Source of the DNA: Eledone cirrhosa
Lineage: Eukaryota; Mollusca; Cephalopoda; Octopoda; Eledonidae
DNA length: 64,000 nucleotides
Reading direction: 5' to 3'
Assembly: GCA_964016885.1 (NCBI GenBank)
Contig: OZ024743.1
Span: 193,456,155 to 193,520,154, forward strand
The notes under the pieces are model-generated. The model had not been told where the DNA came from and did no database searches. It saw nothing but the letters and a program-made list of their open reading frames with translations. This document shows, piece by piece, positions 1,662-50,900 of this stretch (position 1 is the first letter of the stretch; the number at the start of each line of letters is the position of its first letter). The translations under genes and the position numbers were made by a program.

Positions 1662-1702
<41 letters not shown>
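1662..1702. repeat. (TA)n microsatellite next to hairpin
   Basis: Pure TA repeat that directly abuts the inverted repeat starting at 1703. The other hammerhead-bearing hairpins in the window have the same juxtaposition with TA-rich DNA. Confidence 0.9.
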
Positions 1703-1707
<5 letters not shown>

Positions 1708-1821
1708 TAGAAAAGCTTCTACAGGACTAGAACTGTTTCATTCATGAGAAATCATCATGAGCTTCCTGATGATTTCTCATGAATGAAACAGTTCTAGTCC
1801 TGTAGAAGCTTTTCTATATTA
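1703..1821. repeat. Inverted repeat, 55-bp arms, with hammerhead motif
   Basis: Arms 1703-1757 and 1767-1821 are perfect reverse complements with a 9-nt spacer (1758-1766). The right arm plus spacer contains a hammerhead-ribozyme-like sequence on the plus strand. On the minus strand the core is broken because the spacer is asymmetric. Probably a remnant of a Penelope-like or retrozyme-like element. Confidence 0.85.
1760..1810 (+). ncRNA. Candidate type-I hammerhead ribozyme
   Basis: Core CTGATGA is at 1766-1772 and GAA at 1785-1787. Stem I pairs 1760-1765 (AGCTTC) with 1805-1810 (GAAGCT). Stem III pairs 1788-1791 (ACAG) with 1800-1803 (CTGT), and the unpaired residue 17 is A1804, so the predicted cut is after 1804. 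Stem II is weak: a U-U first pair, then TTC/GAA with a TCAT loop. Every invariant core position is met; residue 17 is A rather than the preferred C. Activity is inferred, not shown. Confidence 0.55.
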
Positions 1822-1956
1822 AAACATTTATACTCTGCTATGTATTGAGTACCTTACTTACTGTGGTTACCCCCGATTCAACCCGGAATAACTTATATAT
1901 ATATAACAGTCAATCGACAAGGTCCCAGACCTCATTCACTTAACAAATGAAACAAT

Positions 1957-14700: not shown

Positions 14701-14920
14701 ATGAAAACAGTCAGAATAAAATTCTAGCTTTGGAAATGAAATAAATTTTCTCCAATTAAATTTGCATCTAAAAACAAAATGATGAAAATTTCAAAATAGT
14801 ATCTGATATTGTCCACAGAATCTTTAACTATATTTCTCCTAAATGTTTAATTTATAAATCAAAATTCTGCAACAAAAATGGACAAGGAAATCTTTCACAC
14901 CAAAACAATATATATATATA

Positions 14921-15160
14921 TATTTATTAAAATAACAGATTAAAGTTTAAGCAAAGAATGGCTGCTTTCACCCTTAACAGGATCTTCTTAAGATCCTGTT
15001 AAGGGTGAAAGCAGCGATTCTTTGCTTAAACTTTAATCTGTTATTTTAATAAATATTTGCTCTCCGGATTTTATATATTTTTACATATATATTATCCTTA
15101 TTGAGCCCTCTTCGGATTTTAGTTTTCACATTTATTATTATCACTATATAATTAATTACA
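14921..15160. repeat. Inverted-repeat element, about 66-bp arms, with flank
   Basis: Arms 14921-14986 and 14990-15057 are nearly perfect complements around a 3-nt centre. 15058-15160 continues into AGCCCTCTTCGGATTTTAG and a TTATTATTATC tail. The half-copy at 11505-11650 shares both parts. The right arm retains GAAAGCAGCGATTCTTTGCT, the GAA and stem III part of a hammerhead-like motif. Confidence 0.8.
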
Positions 15161-16889: not shown

Positions 16890-18464
16890 TTAGGTAAGGC
16901 GGGTCTTCTCTGTTACTGAGTACCGCCAAAGGTCTCGGTCCAGTGACATTGTCTTGGAGAGGTGTAAGTGTGTGAGGTCGGAATTTATCAGCTCATCCCA
17001 GGTTTTCCTGGGTCTGCCTACTCCGTGGCTACCGTCTATCTTTATTGCCCTGCACTTTGTTATACAGCTGTCGTCTTTCATGCGCATCACGTGACCATAC
17101 CAACGTAGCCTTCTCTCGAGTAAACAACATCTGATCCCTCTTATTTCTAATTTTTTCCTCAGTTCGTTTATGCTTTGCCGTTCACGTATATTACTATTAC
17201 ACATCCAGCGGAGCATGCAAGCTTCGTTCCTCTCTAGTCTGCGTATATCCTCTGCACACAATGCCCAGGTCTCACTGCCATGCAACATTGCTGTTCGTAT
17301 GCAGGCATCATACAACCTGCCTTTCATTTTTAGGGAGAACCCTTTAGCGGCTAATAGTGGTATAATCTTTCTGAACTTTTTCCATCCAGTTCTGACTCTA
17401 GCTACTGTACTTTCAGAGCACCCTCCCCCACTGCTGATTTTGTCACCCAGGTAACGGAAGCTGTCCACTATTTCTATAGAACCCTCTGCGCAATTGAAAG
17501 AGTTAGTATTTTGTGGGCACTTGCTGCTACTTATTGCACCAGAGCACCGGCCACATGTAAAATCTGTGTTCTTAGTTAGCTTACCTGTGATCCCACTACA
17601 TCTTTTATGCACCCATACTTTGCATTTGGGACATAAAATGGAGTTTCTACCTACGCCTTTCCTACACACTGAGCATGGCCATTTCCCGGAGGGGACCGGC
17701 GCCTTATTTTCTTTCCTACAAACTAGAACTTTAGTCTTAGCCAGGTTAATTTTAAGGCCTTTTGATTCTAGGCCGTGCTTCCATGTTTGGAATTTCTTCT
17801 CTAGCTCGGCCATTGATTCAGCTATGAGCGTTAGATCATCTGCGTATAGGAGTTCCCATGAGCAGCTGGTCTTGAACTCCTCTGTTATAGCCTGAAGGGC
17901 AATAATAAATAGTAGGGGGCTAAGAACAGAGCCCTGATGGACACCAACTTTTATGCTAAACTCTTCACTATATTCGTTGTTAATTCTAACCTTGCTGACT
18001 GTTTCTTTATACATGGCTTGTATGGCTCTCACAAGCCATTCGTCAACACCTAGTTTTCTAAGAGCCCACCAGATAATGGAACGAGGGACTCTGTCGAAGG
18101 CTTTCTCCAAGTCGACAAAAGCTAAGTATAGGGGTTTACTTTTAGCTAGGTACTTCTCCTGTAATTGTCGTACAATGAAAAGAGCGTCTGTGGTACTTTT
18201 GCCTGACACAAACCCGAACTGCATTTCATCTAGATCAATTCTCTCTCTGATTAATTGCGCTATTACTTTTTCTGTGACCTTCATGACCTGGTCGATTAAT
18301 TTAATGCCTCTATAGTTACTCCTATCTAGGGCGTCTCTTTTACCCTTGTAACAGTTAACGATGATGCTGCTACGCCAGTCCTTCGGAACAACCCCATTCT
18401 GTACGACTTGGTTTACTATCCGGGTGACCATGGTGTGTCCCACCGTACCGGAGGCTTTCAGCAT
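16890..18464 (-). pseudogene. LINE-L reverse transcriptase with PHD-like zinc finger
   Basis: 524 open codons. Reverse-transcriptase motifs are LAFVDLEKAFDRVPR (motif A), VGVHQGSVLSPLLF (motif B) and LLYADDLTLIA (motif C, with the catalytic Asp pair). A Cys/His cluster follows: CSVC, CPKC, WVHKRC, CGRC, in the C4-H-C3 order of a PHD-type finger. The C-terminal domain has YLGDKISSGGG, LHGSETWAL, RRLRWYGHVM and GRPRKTWDEL. It catalyses target-primed reverse transcription in intact elements; this copy lacks the endonuclease and has a frameshift near its start. Its clade is probably RTE-like, from the C-terminal domain. Confidence 0.85.
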
Positions 18465-18661
18465 CTCAGCAACTTACCCGTCTTCATATCTTTGATTGCC
18501 TTACTTATTATACTACCTTCGACTAACACTGCTGGTCCCTCTATTGGGTCGATGTGGGGGAGACTGTCTTTCTCCCATTTATTCTCCTCATTTAGTAGCC
18601 TTTCGTAGTGACACTTCCAAGCTACCTTCTTATCAGCGTCAGTGATGGCAAGTACGCCATC

Positions 18662-19980: not shown

Positions 19981-20016
19981 ATATAAGATCAAAAGATGGT
20001 TAAAGGAGTTCCATGT

Positions 20017-20085
20017 ATTTTATTATGCGCATTTCAAAAACAAACATCATCATGCAATAATATTTGTGTTTTCATCAGATAAAAC
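20017..20085 (-). ncRNA. Candidate hammerhead ribozyme (minus strand copy)
   Basis: Mirror image of the motif at 20185-20253, identical because the arms are perfect complements. On the minus strand CTGATGA reads 20078-20072. Confidence 0.6.
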
Positions 20086-20184
20086 AGGAGAACATGATAT
20101 GAAGGCTAAAAAACACTTGTGGATAGTGCAGTTTTAAATCAACATATCCACAAGTGTTTTTTAGCCTTCATATCATGTTCTCCT

Positions 20185-20253
20185 GTTTTATCTGATGAAA
20201 ACACAAATATTATTGCATGATGATGTTTGTTTTTGAAATGCGCATAATAAAAT
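20185..20253 (+). ncRNA. Candidate hammerhead ribozyme, minimal stem III
   Basis: Stem I pairs 20185-20191 (GTTTTAT) with 20247-20253 (ATAAAAT, one G-U). CTGATGA is at 20192-20198. Stem II is 20199-20234: AAA/UUU, a 2x2 internal loop, CAAA/UUUG, then seven pairs including G-U and a GCAT loop. GAA is at 20235-20237. Stem III is ATGCGCAT (20238-20245), and the unpaired residue is A20246, the predicted cut site. Confidence 0.65.
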
Positions 20254-20377
20254 ACATGGAACTCCTTTAACCATCTTTTGATCTTATATTATGTATACTC
20301 CAGTCCTACAAACTGTAGAGTGCTTCTTATCCGATATCTGCATTGCTTTATTGTACTACAATAAAACTCACCTCCTA

Positions 20378-27958: not shown

Positions 27959-29649
27959 TCATACATACTCTTCGTCTGATTTTGCCCCAACATTTGTAAC
28001 AACTTCAGGCTGCAAATTTTGGCTTTGCTCATTGTCCGGCAATGATGCGATATCTTTAAAAACACCAACTAACTTTTCAAAATTTGGCCCCCATGTAAGC
28101 AGATAATCTAAGTCAAACGAGCCTACTGTACCTCGATTTTTTGATTTGTCTTCATCAGAAGACACAAGGGTACTATATGATTCACCGGCAGAATCTAAGC
28201 CATCGTAATCAAATGTCCTATTGTCCACAGGGCTCTCATCATTTTCATTCTCTACTTCAGTTAGTTTTGAATATATCATTGAACCAGGCTCAAAGTCATT
28301 ACGTACTCGTTCAGTGTCATATTCAAATTCTGAACAAGTAAAAGAGTCATTTGCACTGCCATTTGAGCTAGAATCTTGTGCATCCATGAGACCACTGCTA
28401 TTCAGGTTATCGCTTCCTTTACCCCATCTAGCAATGTTCTCATCACTTGAACTTACTGATTCCCGTATACTTTCAGGATGGGTAGAATCAGGACAAGCAT
28501 TTAGTCTATTTACTTCCTCCACAGAGAATCCTTTCATACGATTCCCTCTACCATTATTAGAGCTACTTCTTGGAGCTGGCTGAGGTTTTAATGCAACTTT
28601 AGGTTTAGATTTGCCAGGTTTTCCTGTACAGTTGTCTGAGGATGCTGAGTGGGAATTCCAATGATTATTTGAGCTAGGAGTCAGTACACAGGGACTTTGA
28701 TGTGCCAGGAGATTCATTGGGCTTTGTCTAATTCCTACAGGTGCAGGGCTGCTGCGAGCTAAATTGTTGAGGTGCATGGGGCTACTGCGAGCTGGTACAG
28801 ATAAAGGTCCATTATAATTTAAAGCATTTGAAGCTGGTACATTACCGGACCACATATTTTGTTGAGGGTTTGCAATATAAGGATGTCGATAACCAATCAG
28901 GTTAGAACTAGGTTTGTATTTATTGATCTTTCCATCTCGAAATCCTTTATAATGAGTAACAATATCAATATCTGAAGGAGCTATACTGCTGGCATTCTCC
29001 AAATCATAGTGTTCTGGCACATCTTCATTGAGGTGAACACTTTGAGAGAGATCTCCATTTTCAATTATTACAGTTCCGTCTTCCATTTCAAGAGGAACTA
29101 CAGGATGACTTTCAGATTCAATAATATCAGGTCTTGCCATACAACTATTGTCATGAGCCTTTTGGGCTAATTCTTCAAGAATGTGATTACGAATAATTAT
29201 TTCATCAGGAATACCGTTTCCTTCCACATATTCAGCTTCGCTGTAAGTTTGACTGTTGTTTTTTAAATTACTATTATTCCTTCTCTGATTGCAAAACTTA
29301 TTTAATACTCCAGATTTGCTGTTCTTATTATGTTGCTGGTTACTGTGCCGCCGGTGGCGCCGCCAGTACACAATAAGACCAACAATAATCAAGATGAGAA
29401 TTAGAAGAATTAATAGAGGAAGTAAAATCTTCAGCAGTAAGGGAAGGTCTATTGAAGAGTAAGGAAGACACTTATATGTTGATGCTTCTACTTCACATGT
29501 CATATCAGTTCCGCAAGGATTTGTAGAACACAAACTGGGGCAATCAGCACTGACATTTCCTACGGCTGTCACATCAAATCTATCTGTAGAGCCACCAAAT
29601 GGCATTTTCTGACCATTGAGAAAGAAGTCTTCTAAGCAGCCTTCAAAAC
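27959..29649 (-). CDS. FAT4: FAT4 terminal exon: laminin G2 end, transmembrane, cytoplasmic tail
   Basis: Acceptor TTATTTTCAG. GFEGCLEDFFLNG closes laminin G2. CSTNPCGTDMTC to TYKC is an EGF-like stub without its last Cys pair. The helix LPLLLKILLPLLILLILILI is followed by WRRHRRH stop-transfer. The tail is rich in Ser, Asn and Pro (ARSSPM, ARSSPA repeats). It has a distal LDYLLTWGPNFEKL box and ends DEEYV. Stop at 27961-27959. Confidence 0.95.
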
Positions 29650-31597
29650 CTGAAAATAAAAAGAGAGAAAAATAAAACAAAAAATGTAAGATAAAGAGAA
29701 AATATATGATATATGGCGGGGATGTATTTGTTTTGCAAGGTTTTTGATACATCACCGCCATAGCACAGGCTTGTGCCAAGCCAGTAGGATATTGAAACAC
29801 AAAATACTAGCGTGGAAGATGGACGTTAAACGAAGATGATGATGATGATGAATTTTATTTATATTGAAAACCAAACCAAACCAAACCAAACAGTGAATGT
29901 GTTTTACTATTTTGGCAATATTAGGATAACATGACCCTCTTCAAATATAATGGTTTCCGATTTACGCACAAGGCCAACAATTTTAGGGAGGGGAAAGTCA
30001 ATTAAATAGACCCAGGGCATTACTGGCGATTTATTTTATTGATCCCTTTAGGATAGGAGGCAAAGCTAACCTCGGTGAGATTTGAACTCAGAACAAAAAG
30101 GACTGTAACTCTATGCTGCAAAGCATGGTGTACCCTCCCCAAATATAACAATAGATGATATATGATGTTACTGAAATAAAATTAAAACAGCTTAACGCTT
30201 TCGTGATGGTATTTCTAATTAAATACACTCATCATTATCAGAAAACAGTACAGCTCCCATGACATTAGGAAACATTTTTTCATGTTCAGAGTTGCTGAAG
30301 CATGGAACAAACTACCTGCATCAGTTGTTAGCTGTCAGGTCACTGCACCCTTCAAAACTTCCATTTGCCAACACTACATCTGATATTCCCCCTCCATACA
30401 CACACACGCATGTATATGTGTCTGTGTATATCATGACTCATACACTGTTCACTTTCCTGACATTTGTACATTATTCTATGTACTATACATGCAATTTGAT
30501 GAGTTGTAGTGCACCTGAGTACTATACACAATAATAATAATTATTATTATTATTGTTTAACATCTGCTTTCCCTGCTAGCAAGGGTTGGATGAGTCGTCA
30601 GCATACTAATGTTGGTACTCAAGCAGAGCTACTGACCCCACAGATGGGCTTGGAGCCTGCATCTTGTTTACATGCATTCCTGCTGTCTATGGAGTGCTCA
30701 GATAAGTCAGCTGCCTGCAACTCATGTACATAAGATTCTGCACACTATCAAGTGCATTTTATCATAATATTAAACTGTGAAACTTCCATGTGTCTCTCTC
30801 TATATATATACCCACCTTTATCCCATACATATTATATATAATGCACAGCTATATAATCCTTTATAATCCTAGAGAACAAATGATTCAAATTCAACAAAAA
30901 TTGTAATTGTGTAAATAATTTCTTGTTTAATTAAAGATTTTAAATTATAGATAAATGAAAAAACAATGTGAGTGTATTTGAATACATATAAAATGAGAAA
31001 ACTCATGGCTTGAACAGCTAAATGCTGTGAAAGACATAAAATCGGCAAAAATGCCACAGAGGACAGAAACCAGTGGCTAGTGGTTTGTTTCTCTGTTGAC
31101 CATTGGCTATTGGTCTCTGTCCTCTGACACATTTTGCCCATTGCTGACTTTGACAGAATTTAGCTGTTTTAAAAGCTGTTCTAACGATGAGTTTTCTCAT
31201 TTTTATATGTATTTAAATTATAGTTTTTACCTGGTATGGTTTCTTTATGAATGGATAATGTATGTTTTGTGTTGGCCAAAAACATCACTTCAACATCCAC
31301 AGAAGAAATATCTAGTGGATTTGAGATAAACACCTGAGTTTTTTCATTTTCACCTTCAACTGTTACACTGTCACCTGCAATAAATGATGATATAATGAGT
31401 TGATAGTCTCTCTATTAAAATACCCAAAATATTCATTTGCACTTTTACTAGTTTTAGTCATTAGACTGGCCATGCTAGGGCACTGCTTTAATTTAGTTGA
31501 CCATATCAAATCCAGTATTTATTTTTTCCAAGCCTTACTATATTGATTTTTTTTTTTTTTTTTTACAAACAAATGTAAACATAAACATGAACTAATA

Positions 31598-31635
<38 letters not shown>

Positions 31636-34600
31636 CCAAAAGTTAAACAAAGTTCATTGATTAATCAATAAATATAGTTTTACAATAGATTAGAAGCACT
31701 CAACAGTTAAAGTTTTCTGGAGTTATTAATATTAATAAATATAGTTATTAATATTAATAAATAAAGTTAGGATTGGCAATGAGTATAGCGAGGAATTTAG
31801 CGTACAGGTTGGGGTCCACCAGGGCTCTGTTCTTAGCCCTCTCCTGTTCATCATAGTCCTGCAGGCAATAACGGAGGAGTTTAAGACCGGATGCCCATGG
31901 GAACTCCTGTATGCTGATGACCTCGCACTCATAGCTGAATCTATGGTAGAACTAGAGAATAAATTCCAAACCTGGAAGCAGGGACTAGAGAGAAAGGGCC
32001 TCAAAGTCAACATGACAAAGACTAAGGTCCTTATAAGTAGACGAGAAAACAGAACCCAGATCCCCTCAGGGAAATGGCCTTGCTCAGTATGTAGGAAAGG
32101 TGTAGGTAGGAACTCCATTCTTTGCCCCAAATGCAAACAATGGGTACACAAGAGATGTAGCGGGATCTCAGGAAGCTTAATTAAGAATGTAGGATTCACA
32201 TGCAGCAGCTGTGCTGAAACAGCAAGCAAACAGCCACAGGAAACAAGTACCACCAATCTCTGGGAGGGCCCTGTAGAAACAGTAGACAGCTTCTGCTACC
32301 TAGGTGACCGAATTAGCAACGGAGGTGGGTGCTCAGAAAGTACAATAACTAGGGTAAGAACGGGATGGAAGAAGTTTAGGGAACTACTACCACTGCTAGC
32401 TGCAAAAGGCTTCTCCCTCAGAATGAAAGGCAGACTGTATGATGCGTGTATCCGAACAGCGATGTTGCATGGTAGTGAGACCTGGGCGCTGAAGGTGGAA
32501 GACTTACGTAGATTAGAGAGAAACGAAGCCTGCATGCTCCGATGGATGTGTAACAGTAATATACGTGAACGACAAAGCATAAATGAATTGAGAGAGAGAC
32601 TGAGCATAAGAGGAATCAAATGCTGCGTGCAGGAGAGGCGGTTACGCTGGTATGGACATGTGATGCGTATGAAGGATGACAGCTGCATAAAAAGGTGCAG
32701 AGCACTAGAAGTTGATGGAAACCGCGGAGTGGGGAGACCCAAGATGACTTGGGATGAGGTGATAAAAGCCGACCTTACCCAACTACACCTCCTAAAGTCA
32801 ATGACACACGACCGTGACTTCTGGCGTCACGCAGTAATACAGGGTACCCGACCTCCCATGGGTACATGCTGAAGCATATAAACAATATGCCCCCCCCCCC
32901 CCACCGCAAGGTGGTCGTGGAGGTGCCACGGCAAAAAAGCACCCAGCCCACACTGTAAAGTGGACGTGTAGGCGCCACGAAAAAGCACCCAGCACTCACT
33001 GTAAATGAGGTTGGTGTTAGGAAGGGCATCCAGCTGTAGAAATCAAGCCAGATCAGTTCCTGTATGAGCAAGGCATGGTCAGCCGACCAGACACTGCCCA
33101 CAACAGGACAACCCGTCTAACCCATGCTAGCGTGGAAGAACGGACGTAAAACGGTGATGATGATGATGATGATGATAGACATTCAACGTAATCAAAATAT
33201 ATTTTATTATATATATTTCGGAGGTACTGTGCTGTTTTTTCAGTACGTCCTCATCAGATAAAATATATAAATTGATGTGTGACATATCTCAACTGTGCTG
33301 ATGGTTCAATGCCAAGACTGGAATTGAACCATCAGCACAGTTGAGGTATGTCACACATCAATTTATATATTTTATCTGATGAGGACGTACTGAAAAAACA
33401 GTACAGTACCTCCGAAATATATATAATAAAATATATTTTGATTACGTTGAATGTCTATATTTATTAATATTTTGAATTAATATATATATATGAAGTATTT
33501 CCATAGGAAGGGTAAAGGAAAGGAGAGTGGTCTATTTTAATTATACCCCCCTTTCATACCTTTAACACACACACACCGACCACTTTCATTCTTTCCACCC
33601 TTCATAACCTATTAGAGACTTTGAGCACTTTTTTATTTTTAACCTTTAACCATACTTTTATCTACAACCCAAAACACTCACATATTCACATTAATCCCAT
33701 ATCCTTTGTCATACCCTTAACACACACACACTGACTACCCTCATTACTCTATCATAGCCTTTTTCTTTCTTCCTAATAGTTATACTCTTTCTACATACAC
33801 CTTTACTTTTCATTATTATAATAACGGGAACCCCAATTCTATATTTCAGATAATATATTCATAGATATATATGGATATATATGCCTGTTTATGTATGTAT
33901 GCATTTATCATCATCATCATCATCATTTCATTTTACGTCCACTTTTCCCTGCTTGCAAGGGTGGGACGGGAACTGATTCTGGCTTGATTTCTACAGCTGG
34001 ATGCCCTTCCTAACACCAACCTCATTTATAGTGAGTGCTGGGTGCTTTTTTGCTGTGGCACCTCCACGACCACTTTGCAGTGGAATGATAGGGACTGGGG
34101 TCCCTATCTTCTCATTTCTACAGCTGAGTAAATTGGAGCAATGTGAAATAAAGTGTCTTGCTCAAGGAAACAACACATCGCCCGGTCTGAGAATTGAACT
34201 CAACCTTTCGATTGCAAGGCCAATGCTCTAACCACTAAGCCATGTGCCTCCACTTATGTATGTGTTTATGTATAATTGTGTGTGTATTCTTGTATTTATA
34301 TGTGTATATGTATAATTATATATGTGTGTATGTATGTGCATGTCTATGTATGTTTATGTATATGTTCTGCATGTACGTATGTGTGCATGAGTGTATAAAT
34401 GTGTGTATATATATTATGTATATCCATATTTGTATATGTGTGTGTGTGCGTGCGTGTATATATTTATGTACGTATGTATATGTGCTGTATATCTTATAGT
34501 GTATATAATTTTATCCTTTTAATTTTTTTAGCTGTGTATATACATACTTTTCCTATCATATGCATTTCCATACTTCTATGTCTGCGTACATGCGTACACG

Positions 34601-35999: not shown

Positions 36000-38900
36000 G
36001 TTCTGTCTCATGAGGACATATCCACGTAAGTTACTGTTATGTAACAATGGCAAGTGACTCAGAAATGTGCATAACGTTTGATCATTCAATAAATTGAAGT
36101 ATATATAGAAAAGTAGAAACTGCCTTCATGTTATATATATATATAGATATGACAAGCTTATGCAGATTCCTCACCACTAAATTCCACTCACAAAGCATTG
36201 GTCATGTCAAAGTGAAGCCACAGTAAGGGACACTTGCCTAATGCTATGGGAAGGAAACACCTTTATTATATCACCATGCTTGCACCTTGATAATTTTCTA
36301 CTTTTTCTTTTTTTACTTTCATAAAGTAGAAATTCTGACTATTCAGTTGTGATAGAAAAAAAAATGAATAAAACAGAAACCAAAGAAATGCGTATAAACT
36401 AGAATTGTACCTTCCATGTGCACAGTAATTGTATACCAAGAATGGATGGAGACATTCAATGCCAAAGGAGCACTGGAGACAAAACCATTATGATTCTGTC
36501 CAGCTACAAACAGTGGTTGACTATTGTTTACCTGTAAATAAATAAATATAAATAAATAGATAAATATATATATATTTCAGATTGATAGTATCAAAAGTAG
36601 AGATCATTGTAAATATTTACATTATTAGAGTAACAGCTTTAAATTTTTAATGCGATGTAGGCTTAGTGATATTTTGTACTTTTCAAAAATTTCTTGCTAA
36701 TACAACTTTATGTGGTACAGCACTGAGAGTTAAATAATGCAAAAAAAAACAACAACAAAAAAACAAAAAAAAATACAACAACAGAAAAAAAGGGAAAGAA
36801 AATGTCAGAAGTATTTACCATCAGAAGAATGAACTTTTTCTTGTTATCTGCATACCATAAAAGTCCAGATTTCTTTAGAATACGGAATTTGATACTGATT
36901 GTATTAGCTTTTAGAACACTTCGTTTTTTACGGAACTTTGAATTTGATTTTAAAAATTCGTCTCGATAGTAAGTCTCTCGTCTACTAAATTCAACACGAG
37001 CTCCAGGTCCAAATGAAAATGCTTTCCATTCTGAAAAACAGAAGAAACATGTGTTAGTCAGTAATTATTTGGATTGACTGTAAAAAGGTTTCATAACTAC
37101 TTAAAATATGATTTAATAGTGTTGCTGTCTTGTGAAATAATAATGAAATAATAATGTACAGTGCTCAGGTGCACTACAACTCACAATTCTTTCAGAATAA
37201 CATTACAAATATAATTGTTTCTACTTTTGGCACAAGGCCAGCAATCATCACAGTGCATTACTGGTACTTTATTTTATCGACCCCATAGGGAGGAAAAGCA
37301 AATATAATGTTGATAAACTCAAATATAAACACATATAACAAATATGATTAACCATTGGTAGGAACCTCACAAATATAACGCACCAAAATATATGATCTGA
37401 GTGAGAGAAAGAAAGAAAAAAGAAAAAAGTTAAAAGGAGGGGGCGGGAGCAAAAACAAAAACGACCATCAATTAAGGGAGTCACTCCACGCAGAGCTGTT
37501 ACTTCTCCAAATTAAGAGATCACAGCTCCAATGCTGGCATATGGTTAGAATGTCTTAGGGAAGAATCACTGGACAGATTTTACAGGCAAAACCAACAGGT
37601 AGGAGACCAAGGTGTAGACCCTGAGCAAAATGTTGGAGATCAGTTGGAGGCAGTTGCTTCTGACAGGACCCACTGGAAAGAGTGTTTGAGGACTCTGCCC
37701 CATGACCCTCTCAGGAAGAGAAGGAGGAGGAGGAGGAGGAGGAAGAGGAAGAGGAAGAGGAAGAGGAAGAGGAAGAGGAAGAAGAAGAAGAAGAAGAAGA
37801 AGAAGAAGAAGAAGAAGAAGAAGAAGAAGAATTACAATCAGAAAAATTGACTTACTTTCTTCACAAATTTCCCCCATGTACTGAAGGGGACATTTGCACT
37901 TGAAAGTTGTCCACTTATCAAGACAAATGCCACCGTTTTGACAGGGGTTTGTCTTACATGGTCCAGTTGTATTTTCTCGTAGACATTTTTTCTTGATTCC
38001 AGTGGATCTTCGTGGTTTAAGCTGAATCATATCCACTCCATTCACAATAAAACTGCGCATACATCCAATAAAATCGTGTGAATGAACTTGATTGCTACGA
38101 ATTACATATTGTGCAGGAATTCCACCAATGTATAGATTACCACCGTGAAGTTGTAAATTCCTGGAATGGTAGGAATATTTCAAGAATATATGAAAAAAAA
38201 AAAGTGGTTGAATTAAGAAATAAGGGGAAAATTTGGAATTTTAAATGTGTGTGTCCCAACACAAATGAATATAATAATGGTCATCATCATCATCATCATT
38301 ATCGTTTAACATCCATTTTCCATGCTAGCATGGGTCAGACGAGTTGTCCCATTGTGTGATAACCAGGTCGTGGGACCGTGTTTAGCTCACAGAGAACTGA
38401 TTTTGGTTTGCTTTCTACTGCTGGATGCCCTCTTAATGTCATCATCATCAATCAATATAAATAACAACTGAGAAAATTTAGTATGCAAAGGGTTAAACAA
38501 TGATCCACATAGCATATTCTGGTCCTAATTAAATTGATCCAGATTGCAATAGAGAATGTATTTATGAGAAACTTATCAGTTGTGAGCATTTAATAATTCT
38601 TTTGATACTAACTTGGCTAAGACTGGCTTTGGTCTATGAAACAAAACCAGCCATTTCAAAGGGTTCTTATTTAACCCTTTAGCATTTACATTACTCTATA
38701 TTTACTATTGTATTTTCATGGTAAACACATTATTTCACATAATATCGAATCTATGAGATTTTGATATTTATTTTGCGAACAATACTTTAACATCAGTATG
38801 AACGGCTGGTTACAGCTGGTTTGAACAGAAAGAGGTGTGAGAATTCTGGCCGGATATGGCCGGTTTAAGTGATAAAGGATTAAATTAAAATTTTCCAGCA

Positions 38901-47900: not shown

Positions 47901-50900
47901 CTCAGGGATACTGGCTGTAAACAACCGAGTAAATCGAGGGGGGTTGTCATCGATATCTTGGATAGACACATCCACAGTTGTAGTTCCAGTTTTTCTAATA
48001 GAGGCACTCTGTAAGAGAGAAAAGTTTATAAAGAAAATTACCAATAGAATATAAAATGAAATATAAAATATATGTTACTGATTTTTCAAAGAATATAAAC
48101 ATAACTAATAATAAAATGTTGTAGTTTGCTTGAAGCATTGCATATAATATATAATGTGGAAAGTGATATATGGCTAAACATTACAAAATGGACTGTAAGA
48201 TGAAGGTAACGAAAAAGTAAGTTACCTGGTAATCTTTTTTTTTTTTGTTACAACAAAAAAAAACAAAAAGTTTACCAGGTAACTTACTTTTTCGTTATCC
48301 TTATCTTACTGTCCATTTTGCAATGTTTAGCCTTATATCACTTTCCACATTATATATTATAGAATATTAAATGATTAAATTTTAGCCAATTGTTAATGTT
48401 TGTTTCCTTCTAGAACCCGTCTGTGGGTCTTGGGATATGCAACTTTTGTGCCTCCATCCCACACCTCCCTGGACAAACAGTCATAAACCCATTGTTAATC
48501 TTTTCGGCATTAGATGGAGACTACACTATATTTTTTGAAACATGTTCCTTGTTACCCTACAAGAAGGGCAATGTAGTGTGATTGTTTTTATTCATTCTGA
48601 CAATAGTACAATGGATTTGCTGTAAAAGCTAAACAACAAATGTAAGAACTTATTCAGAATACCCCAACCTCATTTTTTCAACAAAGCTCACCAGCACCAT
48701 CACCAACATCACCACTGTTGTCATTTTACATCCATTTTCCAAGATAGTTGATAGAAACAAGACAAAATGTTAAAGTTCATAGAAAATAAATAATAGCTGT
48801 AATATCAGAAATCGTGTCTCGTTTGTCAGTTAGTCTATTATTTAAAACTTCCAGTGTGAAAATGTTTAAGAATTCCTTCTAATGCTAAATAGATATAACA
48901 TTTAAATAAAAAGAAACAACAAACAAAATGTTGAACAGAGGGTCTGGAAATAGATTTCATTGTGAACAAGATACTAAAGAGAGGAAAGAAGGAAAAATAA
49001 CAAAAATATATTTATTTACATAAGTAAATTTTTATTATACACACTAATTCCTGATTTAGGCACAAGGCCAGCAATTTGTGGGGAGGGAAAGAACGATTAT
49101 ATCGACCTCAGTGTATTAACATTATCAATACTTTATTTTATTGACCCCAGAAAGAGGAAAAGTAAAGTTGATATTGACAGGATTTGAACTCAGAATGTCG
49201 TAACTTATACTAAACATTTTGTCCAACACTATGGATACTGCCAACCCCTTTATAAAGGTAGTTAAGTGTAGGACCGGATTTTATGGGGGGCAATTTCCCC
49301 GGTCCCCCAGCAGAGGGGGCCCCACCAGCAACGGCTGTAGCAATTTATTTGTGCCCTCAGATGGGCACAAATAAATTGCTACATGGGTTTTAGAATGGTT
49401 AGAAGTTTTGAATTTAATACCTGTATGTACAACCGTTCAATTCCAATTATTTGCACCAAGCTAACTTTGATATGTAAAATTGGGGGGGTTTGCTGTGTAT
49501 TCTAATTTTTTGTGTATGAGACCCCCGCCCCCATCGCCAAACCTGAAGTGCCCTGGGGCCCCCAAGGTCTAAATCCAATCCTGGTTGAGTGGCAGCAATG
49601 GTAAAGCTTTTAAGTAAATGCCAAATAATATTTAGTTTCAACTTTCTGTGTTCGGAGTTCACATCTCTCTGGGATTGATGTTGCCTCTCCTAAAATGTAG
49701 CATTGTGTCTGTTATTGATAAATAGATATCAATAATAGATACATTGTACAACAGCTGGTAAGTTAAGGAATTGTATTTATCGATAATACAGTGATGCTTC
49801 TAGCTTGTGTTAGCTTTATCAAGGTACATAACTCTTCCTGACACAGCTTGTCTTTTGTAAATATATCCAAATTACTTTTAAAAGTACATTTTACTAAAAA
49901 AAATAATATGTAATTATTAAAAATCCATCCTAGCATAAAAGAAAAAAAAAATGAAGGAATAGCAGAAGAAAATCAAAATCAATGATATTTTTTATTTTAT
50001 TTTAACAGGATTTATTATTTTTTGGGGTGGGCATGTGATTAGAATGTCTCAGGAAAGAATTGCTGGACAGATTTTACAGGCAAAACCAACTAGCCAGAGA
50101 CCCAGGGGTAGACCCTGAGCAAGATGGTTGGGTAAAATCCATGAGCTTGGCTGCTCTCGCTTGGGGATCCAGTCAGATCAGTTGGAGACAATTGCTTCTG
50201 GCAGGAGCCGCTGGAGGGAGTGTTTTAGGACTCTGCCCCCACAACTCTCTCTGGAATAAGTGGGGGGAAGGAGGATGAGGGGGAGAAGAAGAAGAAAATA
50301 CTTACTTGGTCAACAGCTTTGATGGTAAGCTGGTAAAAGTCGATAGCTTCTCGGTCAATTTGGTTTTTTGTAGAAATGCAGCCAGAAGATTTTATTTTGA
50401 AAGCATCTTTACTATTTCCGTTTGTGATCTTATAGGTAACCATACCATTTCTACCAGAATCGTCATCCTTTGCAGATACACACAAGACCGTTTTACCAAT
50501 TTCGTTTGTCTCTTCAATCGAAGTGTAATAATGCATTTCTTTAAAGTAGGGGGCATTATCATTAATGTCAATAATAACAATACGCACTTCCTTATATGTA
50601 GTTAGGGGGTCCCTGCTAGTATCTGTAGCTCCGATCCATAAACTGTAATAATTAGTTTCTTCAAAGTCTAGTTGGTTGGCAATTGTAAGTACATTACGTT
50701 GAGGATCAATACCAAAGGCATTGTTAATATTTCCACCAGCAATAAAGTATTTGAGAGGAACACCTTTAGGAGAGACACCAGACAGATGAGTTATAGTTGT
50801 GTTTATAGAGGAGTTTTCTTGCAGCTTGAATTCAGTTTTGGCAAGTGTGAACCTTGGTTGGCGAGTTTTATTCTTTTGTAAAAGGTGAATTGTTACTTTC

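Follow-up and report, generated by a model that had tools for sequence, protein, structure and literature searches.

Why does a near-perfect foldback, lying between two open reading frames of a FAT4-like gene, spell a hammerhead ribozyme motif on each of its strands, and does that motif belong to the gene or to the foldback itself? The foldback, which we call locus A, lies in a 64-kb stretch of DNA from Eledone cirrhosa, analysed as a whole and referred to here as the window. Positions 33175-33458 form an inverted repeat of 140 + 4 + 140 nt, whose left (33175..33314) and right (33319..33458) palindrome arms are 98% complementary, with three mismatched positions, and a type I hammerhead descriptor is complete on each strand, in the 3' arm of that strand. 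The plus-strand hammerhead (33365..33436) has an 11-bp stem I, ATATATTTTAT/ATAAAATATAT, the core letters CTGATGA at 33376-33382 and GAA at 33414-33416, and the stem III octamer ATATATAT at 33417-33424, with cleavage predicted 3' of A33425 (A17). Its minus-strand counterpart (33197..33268), which has the orientation of the FAT4-like gene, has its predicted cleavage site 3' of A33208 (A17). The features of a type I hammerhead are present, namely CUGANGA, GAA, the A15.1-U16.1 pair and H17, with stems I to III and an open stem I. A preliminary description of this DNA had given stem II as GGA/TCC plus GTACTG/CAGTAC; these elements are there, but the helix is better read with a C.C mismatch after GGA/TCC and with the second CAGTAC as the partner of GTACTG, for a total of 9 bp and an 11-nt loop. 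The palindrome had been delimited as 33175..33458, and it is real; however, 33175 is a truncation point, at which the left arm is shortened, and the element continues to the right. Locus A as a whole (33175..33491, plus strand) is a truncated family A copy that has neither the head nor the outer left arm; its right end is complete, the right arm extending to ~33481 in the element plan and a short AT tail reaching 33491. The arms at the palindrome centre (33286-33332) also contain a tRNA B-box-like GGTTCAATTCC, which may be a piece of a pol III promoter; the window copy has it letter for letter on its minus strand.

The same design recurs in the window. Locus B (19981..20375, minus strand) is a whole family B element, with its head at 20375, its palindrome at 20290-19981 and (TA)n on both sides, and it carries hammerheads at 20184..20254 (plus strand, A17 = 20246) and 20016..20086 (minus strand, A17 = 20024). 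That the 33175 and 19981 loci hold hammerhead folds of one design, as had been proposed, is confirmed by the descriptor on both strands of each, and the block of stem III and A-ATAAAA said to be common to them is present. Locus B has the layout of locus A and a different sequence, its stem II consisting of AAA/TTT, a C.U mismatch and an 11-12 bp helix; the two loci have core and fold in common, and what differs is the sequence of stem II and of the stem III loop. Each has a self-complementary octamer in stem III, ATATATAT in A and ATGCGCAT in B. A third foldback, at 1702-1822, was absent from the preliminary description and surfaced with a relaxed descriptor that allows one stem II mismatch. 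It belongs to locus C (1702..1894, minus strand), a family C element with its head at ~1894, its palindrome at 1822-1702 and (TA)n beyond 1702; in this copy the motif is found on the plus strand only (1759..1811, A17 = 1804), and its helix II has a U.U at the base. When a C copy is intact, its palindrome centre GGAAGCTTCC serves as the stem I 5' strand for the ribozymes of both strands, and helix II likewise opens with a U.U mismatch. Two further foldbacks, one near-perfect at 14920-15056 with (TA)n at its left end and one at 48143-48361 with 90-nt arms and no (TA)n flanks, contain zero hammerhead sites by the descriptor.

Copy searches in the source genome, a 2.98-Gb assembly, returned 1660 first-look candidates (unconfirmed as copies) with locus A as the query, 157 for family B and 2979 for family C, also unconfirmed; 40 candidates were scored in each case, with identities of 88-100% for A, most of them matched on both strands, 95-100% for B and, apart from locus C itself, 93-97% for C. 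The A head alone gave 1177 first-look candidates, 40 of which were scored. The comparison set for family A comprises 39 copies besides locus A. All three families follow a common plan of (TA)n, head, ACTC...GAGT hairpin, palindrome with hammerheads and (TA)n, in which the head, roughly 50-90 nt long, ends in the ACTC...GAGT hairpin and differs between families; loci B and C show this order when read on the minus strand. In A copies, a conserved ~75-nt head follows (TA)n on one side and GAATTAAT(AT)n forms the other end, and palindromes found whole measure about 323-349 nt. Eight A copies with long upstream flanks showed that family-wide homology starts ~100 nt before the palindrome and spans only ~0.5 kb, and no coding part, in particular no open reading frame for a reverse transcriptase with a GIY-YIG nuclease, was found in the A element of these copies. 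The unit length of ~0.45 kb leaves no room for an enzyme, and no autonomous partner element was found. In the copies fetched, the elements are single dispersed units with inverted arms, not direct tandem repeats.

Among readable copies, (TA)4 or longer occurs no more than 30 nt from the left end in 65/72 A, 22/22 B and 8/12 C and equally close to the right end in 50/55 A, 23/23 B and 6/9 C (from an input of 74 A, 24 B and 12 C copies, with no head found in L011, L041 and L128); the corresponding frequency in the window is 4.6% for 32-nt stretches drawn at random. AT-rich insertion sites, a feature of Penelope-like elements, are found in A, B and C. A target-site duplication cannot be delimited since the targets are themselves (TA)n. 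We also observed A copies that adjoin a B-like element (L041, 1-165) and a C-like element (L011, 600-710), as if (TA)n were a target common to the families.

Our working hypothesis, towards which we lean with only modest confidence, is that a short non-coding mobile element, which inserts into (TA)n and whose RNA is processed by the predicted hammerheads, gave rise to locus A as a truncated copy. Each arm of the palindrome spells a minimal type I hammerhead, so the transcript of either strand carries one. Target-primed reverse transcription is the most likely route by which the elements would enter (TA)n, and the machinery for it would presumably come in trans from a Penelope-like or other non-LTR element. 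The predicted hammerheads would then self-cleave the element RNA, trimming or unlinking it. Small hammerheads of Penelope-like elements have been described as cleaving as dimers, and those of family A may do so as well, given that their stem III octamer is self-complementary.

The competing explanation that best survives our results is that the hammerhead is a relic, the hairpin repeats having spread by a DNA or RNA route in which self-cleavage is no longer involved; we hold this to be possible but rather unlikely. The retention of the motif, scanned over whole loci including their flanks, bears on it in both directions. A match to the relaxed descriptor survives on one or both strands of 31/39 A, 24/24 B and 9/12 C copies and on both in 18, 20 and 3 of them, respectively; for A loci found via the head alone, the corresponding numbers are 25/36 and 8. 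The 8/39 A and 3/12 C copies with no intact motif on either strand are what a relic would leave, whereas its retention by every B copy argues against a relic, although family B is young. The preliminary description had proposed selection on the fold, against which copies freely breaking the core would speak; the A and B copies, examined for this, do not break it freely, and substitution counts lend the proposal further support. In family A (39 sequences including the window copy, with L033 dropped, substitutions only), core letters are substituted in 12/934 cases versus 451/11529 for non-CpG letters elsewhere in the arms, i.e., about a third as often, with a Fisher p of 5.6e-6 that assumes independent letters, which those of related copies are not; 45/20000 base-matched random sets were as low, and the true register ranked 5 of 116. 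In family B, the counts are 1/600 versus 72/7096 (p 0.044, under the same assumption), with 1541/20000 matched sets as low and a rank of 17 of 104. Within the right arm of A, substitution is low in CTGATGA (4/273) and on the stem III/stem I 3' side (4/427), but GAA (5/117) and the first three stem II pairs (5/117 and 7/117) are not below background, and we therefore call the core constraint in A present but modest; in B, it is weak. Such levels of constraint would also suit a relic. A stronger argument for selection on the fold than any of these within-family counts is the likeness between families, as all three have the same core, pairings and layout with different stems, and this weighs against a relic.

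In RNA folding, the full A palindrome reaches -228.2 kcal/mol, compared to -10.7 kcal/mol for the one-arm hammerhead fold, and in all four cases tested (A+, A-, B+ and C+) the minimum free energy (MFE) structure of the monomer is more stable than the hammerhead. The antisense arm is transcribed first on either strand and the hairpin is very stable, so the two arms would pair in read-through transcripts and the ribozyme is expected to be silent there; it would be free only in single-arm RNA. A hairpin of this stability should block the hammerhead fold, a point in favor of a relic, as is the finding that a Penelope-like element (PLE) of Anolis inserts in vitro with a dead hammerhead (PMC11167929). 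When two molecules are folded together without constraint, the MFE structure is a double hammerhead joined through an intermolecular stem III for 22/36 distinct A sequences, 0/8 B and 0/10 C, and the monomer MFE leaves CUG free in 34/36, 2/8 and 4/10 of them, respectively.

The arms of the palindrome change together. In 40 A sequences (6401 pair cells), we counted 114 double complementary, 273 single and 5 double non-complementary changes, where independent change would predict, by our estimate, about one such double complementary change; many of the 114 are common to related copies and are therefore not independent events. Either conversion between arms or a single RNA template for both of them would account for this co-change. 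The centre of the A palindrome varies and is often made of two near-complete 5' ends that meet (L077, L022, L009), and the spacer between the head and the left arm is hypervariable, with 31 different versions among the 34 readable in 39 copies (L007-L045). This spacer sits inside an ACTC-CAG/CTG-GAGT hairpin (e.g., at ~200-220 of L022), and the rest of the repeat is ~95% identical. Among the 36 head loci, 10 have only the head-bearing arm according to blastn (L065, L066, L069, L070, L071, L074, L076, L078, L120 and L127, with a short piece of a second arm visible by eye in L066 and L078), 21 have a second arm that ends at R171-178, the GAATTAAT end (R being the reference for arm ends, a real copy, L077), and 5 are irregular. 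Rebuilding of the palindrome at each insertion, from two cDNAs joined 5' to 5', would suit the variable centre and the one-armed copies of family A; we do not claim it, as family B keeps one centre in 20/25 copies (one with a substitution), and its spacer is the same in 21/25. Of note, L062 contains, at ~2037-2191, a head and an outer arm only, which start a few nucleotides from the predicted cleavage site and have (TA)n on both sides. This copy is possibly the insertion of a cleaved RNA, and AT microhomology could yield the same structure.

Short, non-coding palindromes in AT-rich targets also bring to mind a classical MITE, i.e., a derivative of a DNA transposon with terminal inverted repeats, in which the hammerhead motif would be incidental. 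The spread of family B as one unit with a constant centre fits this scenario, but the extreme ends of the A, B and C elements are not mutual inverted repeats, a head being found on one side and a bare arm on the other, and we judge a MITE origin improbable.

A role for locus A in the gene that surrounds it is less probable still. The gene, on the minus strand, is FAT4-like, its named relatives including the molluscan proteins of Mya and Dreissena as well as a krill and a bee protein, and locus A lies between its open reading frames at 27959-29806 and 37566-38240. Fragments of a LINE-type reverse transcriptase with a PHD finger occur in the window at 16893-18473 and 31745-32869, and the interval from the latter fragment to locus A contains a SINE-like repeat that has a (GAT)n tail. 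The minus-strand motif at 33268-33197 runs in the direction of the gene, and it had been suggested that it could cut the pre-mRNA intron, as a regulatory ribozyme would do. A function tied to the FAT4-like intron finds no support and is set aside because locus A is one of the many copies of a repeat, and a truncated one; cutting of the pre-mRNA by this motif is in itself unlikely, since the sense ribozyme is located 3' of its own complement within the -228.2 kcal/mol hairpin. We consider such a ribozyme very improbable.

The strict descriptor finds 4 sites in the 64 kb, corresponding to two foldbacks (A and B) on two strands each, compared to 3 matches in 100 dinucleotide shuffles of the window, and the relaxed descriptor finds 5 sites in three foldbacks, compared to 6 matches in 200 shuffles. 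The bare core, CTGATGA-N(8-38)-GAAA, is matched 6 times in the window with 1.73 matches expected, which is weak evidence. Even with the bare core expected this often, a hammerhead-like motif arising by chance in AT-rich sequence is hardly credible, because the descriptor sites, 4-5 against ~0.03 per shuffled window, far exceed the shuffles and the descriptor is retained across repeat copies. The energy of the hammerhead fold is unusual for A (z -4.55 and -3.17) and ordinary for B (-0.44) and C (-0.73). Rfam detected no hammerhead in the whole window at the gathering score, and with the limit relaxed to E values of 10 it still detected none in the regions of A and B or in two C copies; scans of viral contigs for the pattern gave 0 matches. 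The Rfam matches to microRNA, AfaR and snoRNA families were rejected, being all below gathering scores and as expected from long hairpins. Palindromes of this kind score as microRNA precursors in permissive Rfam searches and could mislead annotation.

Returning to the hypothesis of a (TA)n-inserted element with RNA-processing hammerheads, we tentatively suggest a wider interpretation, less likely than not, in which families A, B and C would represent a distinct class of mobile units in a cephalopod genome, targeted to (TA)n, inverted, with a hammerhead on both strands and present in thousands of copies. Such units would arise, or be homogenised, through two ribozyme-bearing RNA copies joined 5' end to 5' end, and their ribozyme would be active only on single-arm RNA. 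Together with the young family B, inverted units with a motif on both strands would offer a natural system in which to study the benefit of a ribozyme to a mobile RNA. One could also ask there how such a ribozyme is silenced by its complementary arm and how genomic palindromes that are nearly perfect originate and remain homogeneous.

Hammerheads in animal genomes have been described mainly from direct tandem retrozymes and from Penelope-like elements. Minimal type I hammerheads are thus already known, and what is new, in the literature searched, is the inverted, (TA)n-flanked architecture with a motif on both strands; an inverted-repeat hammerhead element was not found in the titles, abstracts and passages of that literature, which includes few subscription papers. 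Nor are hammerheads new to cephalopods, as the excerpted giant squid genome report lists 235 Hammerhead_1 loci (PMC6962438), for which the excerpts describe neither a structure nor an element; those loci were annotated by Rfam, whereas the loci described here fall below its threshold. Like the animal retrozymes, as portrayed in the excerpts of the report on them (PMC7229834), families A, B and C consist of short repeats that are non-coding and low in GC and carry a type I hammerhead, and details also agree, the palindromic helix III tetraloop of the axolotl Amex1 being matched by A and B and the U.U at the base of helix II of HHR_Amex2 by C. The same excerpts describe metazoan retrozymes as direct tandem repeats with circular RNA, unlike the dispersed single inverted-repeat units found here. 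A self-cleaving motif on both strands and a highly self-paired RNA are shared with viroids and viroid-like RNAs, as characterized in parts of the corresponding article (PMC9608096), except that the motif is predicted here and that our elements are dispersed genomic repeats. Terminons, which the retrozyme excerpts group with Penelope-like elements, also have minimal type I hammerheads (PMC7229834). The closest known mechanism, by analogy, would be the insertion of the Anolis Penelope-like element Poseidon PAc. Its protein nicks both strands of AT-rich DNA, extends them and initiates reverse transcription at two internal positions, which accounts for ends with and without a tail; as the PAc hammerhead is dispensable for insertion in vitro, this precedent also supports a relic (PMC11167929). 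PAc and the elements described here have in common a small hammerhead, AT-rich targets and an optional tail at one end of genomic copies (PMC11167929), but PAc encodes a reverse transcriptase and a GIY-YIG nuclease and is arranged in direct tandem, whereas the units of families A, B and C have no open reading frame, inverted arms and a hammerhead motif on both strands.
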